NCBI RefSeq assembly: GCF_032362555.1
Contig: NC_083507.1
Location: 1,553,001 to 1,617,000, forward strand
Source of the DNA: Amyelois transitella
Taxonomy: Eukaryota > Arthropoda > Insecta > Lepidoptera > Pyralidae
Direction of reading: 5' to 3'
DNA length: 64,000 nt
Shown: piece after piece, positions 28,201-31,200 of the stretch
Layout of the letters: each line of letters starts with the position of its first letter
Position numbering within the stretch: the first letter of the stretch is position 1
Position numbers and translations under genes: made by a program
Notes under the pieces: model-generated
What the model saw: only the letters and a program-made list of their open reading frames with translations
Told to the model about the DNA's origin: nothing
Database searches by the model: none

Positions 28201-31200
28201 AATATCGAAATATCTTCAAAAACTAATCTTTCTCAAATGTGATGTAACGCAATGGACTTAAAGTTAGGCTCTAGTACTGCACCCAAGAGTCATCTTATGC
28301 AGAGAGTACCTGCGACACTGTAATGCCACACTTCCTCGCCAGCTCCTCCTTAATTTCCTCACTCGGGTACGGATTAGCAAGATGGGAATAAAAGTACTCA
28401 TTCAACAGTTCCAGCGCTTGCTTCGTGAAATTCCGCCTTTTCCTTCTCGCGTCGAGGAAACTGTAAATAGTTTTTTTTTTTTTTGCCATAGACTAAGATA
28501 CATTTTTTTTATACCTGCGAGACCGTGATTCCGCACTTGCGAGCCAACTCCTCCTTGGCCTCTTCACTGGGGTACGGGTTGGAGAGGTGAGAATAGAAGT
28601 ATTCGTTGAGAATTTCGGAGGCCTGCTTGCTGAAGTTGCGGCGCTTTCGGCGGGCGTCTAGGAAACTGTAATTTTTTTTTTAAATTTTAGATGAGGCCAA
28701 AGTTGAGCTGTTGCAAGGTTCCCGCGTAAATGTGCGTCAAGAGTTTTATTTCAATTATATTTTTGATGGTGGTTTGAAAATGTTCACATTTAAAAAGTAA
28801 AAAATATTTATGTACATTTATTTAATTATAAAATAATGCAAAGTAAACTGTGACTAAGATATCCCTAAACGTACAAATACGCGGTGATGTTTTGAATCAA
28901 ATAACAATCATTTTACATTATAATTTGTATATGACTTTAGATGATTAAAATTTGACTAGTTTGAACCGTTAAAACGGTACATTATCCCGGATGTTATAGC
29001 ACACAGCCACGGTGGACTGCTAGTAAGCCGTCCTCAAAATTTTAAGAATTTACAGGGAGATTAGCCTCGGCACGGCTGTAGTCACTTCACTACATATTAT
29101 AAAGCAAAGTCCTTCCTATGTTTGCACTAATCTCGGAAAGTTATCGAGGGTATTCTGAGGAAGATTCATATCTATAAGCCGGGGCGGGTCGCTAGTTTAA
29201 AATAATTAAGTATGCATTCCATACCGTGAGCGCAATATCATAACTGCCTCGCAGGTGGACTGCTTCAGCTGCATCTGGATGGAGCTGAACTTCTTGTGTA
29301 TGATCTGCACCATGCGCTCGATTTCCTGCAAATTTCCAAAAATTATTATCACACCACTAAATATTGTAATTAAAATATAGAATTACGAAAAATCGTATTG
29401 TGGCAATAAAAATTATGATTGACACATAGTATAAATTAAATGTTTTTAATCTATTAAGACTAACTTTAATTAGTTATGAAAATAGCCTGGCCCATCTGAC
29501 CTCCGCAACCTTATGCAGGGGAACCTTACTCAAATAGGATCATGGTTATACATTCATTTGCCTGAATGTGAGATAGACAATAAGACATATTAAAGTTCGT
29601 GATAAGTAAAAGGTGACATGAATAGTGAAATAAAAAATTATTAAAGCAAGAAGTTGTCTCTCACCTTGGGCGTGATAGGCCTCGTGCGGCTTTGCTCCCT
29701 GAGCAGATTCATCACGTGGGTGGTGAATTCATTGCAGGCATTCTCGTACTTGTCCAGCTCCTGGTGGTAGATCTGGCGGATCTGCGCCAGCTTCGCGCGG
29801 TAGTCCGAGTGCTCGATCGCGTTATCTGCTTGAGCCACAGTGCCTTAGTAGCAGCACAGAAAGAATACATGCAGCCACCACCAGTTACATTGTTAGGCTA
29901 CGGCTTATTGTTAATCTGATGTTCAATGAAAGCGTGGTTGGATGTAGCACAGAGCCATCTATGTGGATGCCATTGAAATCATAATCAAGCATGCTGTTAT
30001 GTATCATTGGAAATTTAGTTAAATGTGTTTGAGCTAGATGTCCTTACAGTCGACCAATTTATAAAATTATAACTACCTGAATTATTAAAATTCTTATTTA
30101 ATTGGTCTGTCCAAAGTGTGTTCTATGGAGAAACTGAAGGACTCCAAAAAATTTGGGGTATTTTGAGGTCAATTATAATCAAAGCGTTTTCATTATTTTA
30201 ACATAAGGGTGACCAAATACTCTATTGAGCTCATGCATTATAATTGTAAACTAGCATGCAGTCAAAAAATCTATTACATGATGTGTTTGACATGGATGTC
30301 AATTCATCACATATAAGTTAATGGGTGTGAGGGAAGCAATTGCCTTCTAAAACTTTACCAAATTGTACTGTATCAATTAATTTTATTAGCAAGCCATGCA
30401 ACATGCAAAAAATATCCAGGACATTTTATATCTAACTAAGATTTGAACAGGAAAAAATCTACAAATTTGAACGAAACACCTGATTTAGTTTGGAGTTGTG
30501 AACTTTTGATCAAATAATAAAAGATGCTAGATAGAAATCTATAAATATAACTATTCCACAAAAGATTTTATAGCTCAATTTTAGCATTGGTAGTTTACAC
30601 TGTAGACTAACAAAGCAAATATAGACACAATTTGTTTTCCTGTTATGAAACTGAAGAAATGACAAATGAGTAAGAGAAAAAGAAATCAAGTAGAATTTTT
30701 TTGGTTATAATGATGCTTGTACTCAACATTCACCCACATAAAGTTCAACATGCTATGTAAAAATGTTGTTTTTGATCCATTACAGGCTTTTAAATAATTT
30801 CTAACTTGACATAGAATACATGTTGTATGAATAATAATGTGTGACAGGCACCATTAGCATAATTGTTAGCAAGTTAATATTCCATTGAATTAATTTCAAG
30901 GCTTCAGTTGTAATAGATTTCAGAACAAATTGAAATTATTCTTCATAGGTCTTTAAAATATGTTTTCTTACAATTTAGTGACTTAATGAAAGGCAGTGAT
31001 ACAATAAATTTACACAATTTGAGGCTAGCTCAATCTGTGTAATTTGTTCCCATATAATTATTAATTATTAATTTAACACCTTTCATTATAGACACTGTTA
31101 CCCCACATCCTTCTTTAGACAATAATATTAAGGCTGCTGATAATTACATATTTTTCAATCAGAGATCAAATTCACAAGAGCTCAGGGCTATTAGGGTGGT

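Follow-up and report, generated by a model that had tools for sequence, protein, structure and literature searches.

The window, a 64,000-nt stretch of Amyelois transitella DNA, contains a complete extradenticle (exd) gene on the minus strand, from the start ATG through the stop codon. Exd/PBX acts as a general partner in bringing Hox proteins to their target sites on DNA, and each gene is usually taken to make one constant protein. In the gene model, coding exon 1 (31584..31842), which begins with the start ATG and whose product includes a PBC domain, is followed by exon 2 (31307..31459), exon 3 (29665..29843) and exon 4 (29225..29325). Exon 4 ends with the CG of an Arg codon, and two versions of exon 5 share it as their upstream partner. 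Exon 5a (28515..28665) encodes the canonical homeodomain residues to Q44. It is separated by a GT-AG intron of 54 nt (28461..28514) from exon 5b (28310..28460), an alternative homeodomain exon. Exon 6 (27536..27632), with the recognition helix, is the common downstream partner, and the last coding exon, including the stop codon, lies at 25293..25468. All of these features are on the minus strand.

The coordinates of 5a (28665-28515) and 5b (28460-28310) proposed in an earlier note, made by a model from the sequence, were exact to the base. The length of 151 bases and the equal phase that it gave for the two exons were also confirmed, both having the same entry phase and an exit phase of 0. Each exon is preceded by ttacag and ends at a CAG|GT donor. 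The first base of either exon finishes the Arg codon (CG|T) started in exon 4, and 50 codons follow. The two exons are thus adjacent and homologous, of the same length (151 nt) and phase, 69.5% identical and 54 nt apart. No third copy of exon 5 was found in the 64-kb window by tblastn of 5a and 5b.

A message with either 5a or 5b has 371 codons and the same stop. The claim that joining 5a and 5b breaks the frame held: when both are included, a stop is met inside 5b. When both are skipped, the frame shifts, the homeodomain is lost and the stop falls in the last exon. Neither joint inclusion nor joint skipping is viable for this pair. Exclusion would probably be double. The 54-nt intron should give little room for 5a-5b splicing, and the stop inside 5b would act as a second safeguard on any message carrying both exons. 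A single CTNAN branch-point candidate was found in this intron, 33 nt from the 3′ splice site. Insects do splice introns of about 55-60 nt, so a steric block at the 54-nt intron may be incomplete. The available part of PMC5740500 gives a donor-to-branch-point distance under 50 nt as the steric criterion for mutually exclusive exons, and the distance in the 54-nt intron lies below this limit.

Other splicing signals were compared within the gene. The pyrimidine tracts of 5a and 5b are its poorest (5 of 20 positions each, vs 8 to 15 at the five other acceptors), which fits regulated exons. The donors do not set the pair apart, with 6 of 9 consensus matches for both 5a and 5b and 5 to 9 for the others. 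A repeat search over 27533-29328 returned three inverted pairs of 14-19 nt with 79-86% complementarity. One of them links exon 4 with the donor end of 5a and is a candidate RNA pairing for exon choice.

The divergence between 5a and 5b was then analysed codon by codon. It had been proposed that most codons differ silently while five residues are changed, and the counts agree: 16 of the 50 codons are identical, 29 differ silently and 5 are replaced. The 46 base differences are distributed 10/3/33 over codon positions 1/2/3, and the 5b protein is 90% identical to that of 5a. The NG86 method gave a dN of 0.108, and dS was returned as -1, which was taken as saturation. In a neutral simulation, 46 random substitutions were placed in 5a (20,000 runs). 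The simulated residue changes had a mean of 27.8 and a minimum of 19, and a stop was gained in 78.2% of the runs; only 5 changes and no stop were observed. Since silent sites look saturated at a dN of 0.108, both exons appear to have been under purifying selection for a long time, and selection on the protein has apparently held them long enough to blur the silent sites. The long constraint that had been suggested for both exons is borne out by the silent excess, the dN and the simulation together. An assembly artefact or a recent duplication as the source of 5b was ruled out because the DNA of the two exons is only 69.5% identical, and a chance open stretch was ruled out by the splice sites and the simulation. 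That 5b is a dead duplicate or chance open stretch is hardly credible. Such a sequence would have to show 5 residue changes where every neutral run gave at least 19, with no stop and with intact splice sites, and B-type proteins occur in four other Lepidoptera.

Residues were numbered with F8 as the standard homeodomain position, which we assume for all assignments below. Exon 5a encodes canonical Exd: 48 of 48 aligned residues are as in the solved Exd structure 5zjq, and its exact 50 residues occur in 78 of the best 120 of the 2701 proteins found with full-length isoform B. Relative to 5a, exon 5b carries S9T, S13L, I15L, S23bA and A30I (counted from F8). The five changes had been placed at helix 1 and helix 2 positions. 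This is correct for 13 and 15 (helix 1) and for 30 (helix 2). It does not stand for 9, just ahead of helix 1, or for 23b, in the TALE loop, when the helices are taken from the AlphaFold model of a B relative from Manduca. The mean pLDDT of this model is 53.8 overall and 75 to 88 in the ten-residue blocks of 231-290, and its top PDB matches are the Exd and PBX1 homeodomains.

Both isoforms contain the PBC domain (PF03792, 283.6 bits). Both homeodomain versions passed the Pfam Homeodomain model (58.8 and 57.4 bits, the former for B; cut-off 22.9), and Homeobox_KN was scored at 59.8 bits for B (cut-off 24). The N-terminal arm RRKRRNF is common to Exd-A and Exd-B, as is the recognition helix, which is mostly encoded by exon 6. 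The three-residue TALE loop is kept in B, with LAN ahead of PYP. On the putative capacity of Exd-B to bind DNA together with Hox proteins, the observations are this residue retention and the predicted fold of the Manduca relative. None of the five altered residues is, we assume, a DNA contact in solved structures, so exon 5b is more likely to change how strongly the protein binds its partners, how stable it is or how it is regulated than to give it a new DNA motif. The loop with 23b presumably adjoins the pocket that receives the Hox hexapeptide.

B-type relatives were sought in a protein database clustered at 90% identity. The search with full-length isoform B returned 2701 proteins, of which the best 120 were examined, and records with three or four of the five window-B residues were called B-type. 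Among these 120 matches, at least 24 records are lepidopteran by name (19 species). Four of the 24 records, from 4 of the 19 species, are B-type: Pieris brassicae X4, Manduca sexta, Danaus plexippus X2 and Galleria mellonella X10. The remaining 20 of 24 are A-type, a count from which absence of B is not to be read since clustering at 90% identity may hide B forms behind A-type representatives. Both versions are conserved in related species, being listed for Danaus plexippus and Manduca sexta; for Pieris and Galleria, B only is present among the matches listed. Danaus X2 (B) and X5 (A) lie on contigs of equal length, are identical downstream of exon 5 and differ by 9 residues within it. The two Manduca records (A and B) have one gene id, are identical upstream of exon 5 and differ by 5 residues within it.

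The B signature of the window and its four relatives reads T/S9, L/I13, L15, A23b and V/I30. Window B differs from the four relatives at 2 to 11 of 50 residues, vs 3 or 4 of 225 to 231 residues upstream, and B changes between species at a higher rate than the upstream part of the protein. In all five B sequences, the arm, core and loop positions are unchanged. A search of short ORFs gave 284 proteins at E<=0.001. The full window-B signature was absent from the best 120 of these 284, in which P0060 and P0063 have two of the five window-B residues plus V30. The collections of viral and prokaryote contigs gave no confirmed relative.

Two of the six records compared, Galleria X10 (B, P0208) and Manduca P0228 (A), stop within a few residues of the end of exon 5 and so represent truncated forms. 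In the window, a reading continued past 5b meets a stop three codons beyond V45; past 5a, the stop follows V45 immediately. Truncated Exd lacking the recognition helix may actually be made (window 28309-28514; P0208 and P0228). These forms raise the alternative that 5b serves mainly to make truncated Exd, by read-through past exon 5, giving a PBC-only or dominant-negative protein without the recognition helix and little full-length Exd-B. We regard this as improbable: the full-length B proteins Danaus X2, Pieris X4 and Manduca P0127 continue into exon 6, and the donor of 5b is intact.

Exons 5a and 5b are very probably a tandem-duplicated pair of mutually exclusive exons, by which one exd gene would give two Hox cofactors, the canonical Exd-A and Exd-B. 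The earlier note's proposal of frame-exclusive homeodomain exons in exd is supported in this respect by exon structure, frame logic and constraint. Points that weigh against the proposed pair are the A-type majority among the lepidopteran matches (clustering may conceal B forms there but does not reveal any), the two truncated records, the faster change of B between species and the donors, which are no different from those of the other exons. For Amyelois transitella itself, we infer from the sequence that 5b is used and how it is spliced, as well as its exclusivity and its biochemical effect. The PBC domain, N-terminal arm, recognition helix and tail would be the same in Exd-A and Exd-B, and the difference would lie in the helix-1/TALE-loop/helix-2 body of the homeodomain. 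In Exd-B, two serines (13 and 23b) would be lost, and the helix-1/helix-2 face (15 and 30) and the 23b loop would be altered. Most likely, B adjusts the stability of the homeodomain and its affinity for Hox partners, or its control through serines, and leaves the DNA motif unchanged.

A further search was scored on residues 226-285 of isoform B. It returned 2455 proteins, and the best 120 of the 2455 were examined. Several top-ranked predicted proteins contain exon 5 more than once. At least two exon copies were counted in 13 of 231 proteins (P0121-P0351). Nine were kept: Pomacea, two Biomphalaria, two Elysia, Mytilus, Mya, Owenia and Panulirus (three copies). Operophtera P0206 was set aside as it has the A-type exon twice, likely a model artefact; Acipenser P0245 was set aside for its near-identical copies and Adineta P0248 for a second copy far downstream. 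Record P0249 was also set aside, and Oncorhynchus P0211, with a repeated partial exon, was not counted. The records with a doubled or swapped exon are P0236/P0240, P0241, P0202, P0210, P0242-P0244, P0246, P0227 and P0247. These predicted proteins come from a barnacle, a spiny lobster, gastropods, an annelid and bivalves. In several of them, the second copy has a late start or comes after odd residues that look intronic, the pattern expected if frame-breaking exons had been joined by force in gene prediction. From such predicted proteins, we infer tandem exons in these non-lepidopteran genomes. In the barnacle Pollicipes, X4 and X5 are identical save for 14 residues, all in the exon 5 equivalent. 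The statement that PBX/exd is usually of a single form does not seem to apply everywhere, as predicted proteins of other protostomes show the exon doubled or swapped.

In a tree of the 50-residue pieces, several alternative versions were grouped with supports of 0.73-0.77. The same group also holds a fish PBX1-like protein, a rotifer piece and short ORFs. The PBX1-like protein of the fish Engraulis encrasicolus (P0343) has T9, I13, V15, A23b and V30, nearly the lepidopteran B signature, and no second exon version was seen for it. Covariation was considered in 78 distinct exon strings (positions 5-50), a biased set as they were gathered with B-like queries. A23b is paired with V or T30 in 13 of 24 strings; of the 53 strings that have S or G at 23b, 9 lack A at position 30; one string is gapped there. 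Because the strings are related, this pattern is only a hint, and not a test, of coupling between the TALE loop (23b) and helix 2 (30).

A single ancient duplication in protostomes could be the source of the alternative exons found in Lepidoptera, barnacles, gastropods and annelids, a history compatible with the exclusive pair proposed here for the moth. The exon is doubled or swapped in molluscs, an annelid, a lobster and a barnacle, and T9 and V/I/T30 recur in part among the alternatives of Lepidoptera, Pollicipes X4, gastropods and Owenia, which cluster in the tree. However, the support of this cluster is only 0.73-0.77 and other members (fish PBX1-like protein, rotifer piece, short ORFs) fall within it, which makes convergence easy. 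Fly, beetle, bee and Daphnia records lack the B signature among the matches listed, where clustering could hide it, and the doubled copies are known from predicted proteins and not from DNA. A single ancient origin is unlikely, and repeated origin is favoured over it. That tandem duplication has struck the first homeodomain exon of PBX/exd repeatedly across protostomes (Lepidoptera, barnacle, spiny lobster, gastropods, bivalves and annelid) has, on these sequences, slightly less than an even chance of being right. If it is, many animals would run two or more interchangeable Hox-cofactor homeodomains per gene, an undescribed splicing layer of Hox specificity.

Mutually exclusive exons in the DNA-binding domains of transcription factors are known from TCF3 (E12/E47) and from FOXP1/FOXP1-ES. 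As in exd, one gene has a pair of homologous exons that code for alternative forms of a part of its DNA-binding domain. Unlike these, exd encodes the TALE homeodomain of a Hox cofactor, in which the DNA-contact residues appear unchanged. TCF3 is named among the genes with MXE clusters in the available portion of PMC5740500. Alternative splicing in the PBC family is also described for Pbx1a/Pbx1b, in vertebrates and with a developmental switch. There, the cassette exon 7 alters the tail and the homeodomain is the same in both forms, whereas the exd pair would swap part of the homeodomain (PMC4755740, available part). A psyllid likewise has two Exd proteins, exd and exd-r, and its exd gene has 7 exons. 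Its exd-r is an intronless retrogene, whereas the second Exd of the moth would come from an alternative exon (PMC9933525, in the portion available). The homeodomain-less isoforms of homothorax also concern a TALE Hox cofactor with alternative processing that touches the homeodomain. In that gene the homeodomain is present or absent, whereas in exd its body would be exchanged (PMC7392893 and PMC9933525, accessible text). No description of alternative homeodomain exons in exd or PBX was found in the accessible text of the open-licence papers searched. This covers the available parts of PMC13276312, PMC7392893, PMC9803972, PMC4755740, PMC6118893, PMC5322547, PMC12111275, PMC9933525, PMC9218548 and PMC5740500. 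B isoforms are already in the automatic annotation of some Lepidoptera, and mutually exclusive exons in DNA-binding domains are a known kind. If the homeodomain splice switch is true, the same Hox protein would meet different partner versions by tissue or stage. Moths and butterflies would then offer a way to test how similar Hox proteins find different targets. If the doubled exons of other protostomes are real, evolution would have arrived at the homeodomain exon swap more than once.

Other features were noted in the window. Beside exd, on the opposite strand, a 736-aa ORF (32538-34748, plus strand) contains WHEP-TRS, class II synthetase core and anticodon-binding domains; by reading of these domains, it is a predicted glycyl-tRNA synthetase. 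A LINE-like element (40784-43831, plus strand) has endonuclease and reverse transcriptase domains in one 1015-aa frame, and a shorter piece (60372-60794, minus strand) has the same C-terminal residues as this frame. Among exon-like pieces at 57417-57701 (plus), 38616-38900 (minus), 20689-20976 (plus), 45786-46064 (minus) and 3197-3481 (plus), SURF4, PRP38 and Kazal domains were above the Pfam cut-off, and ubiquitin-like and SH2 domains just below it. A tandem repeat open on both strands, with units like VIIGIIWLFIQIR (taken from the ORF list only), lies at 3756-4253.
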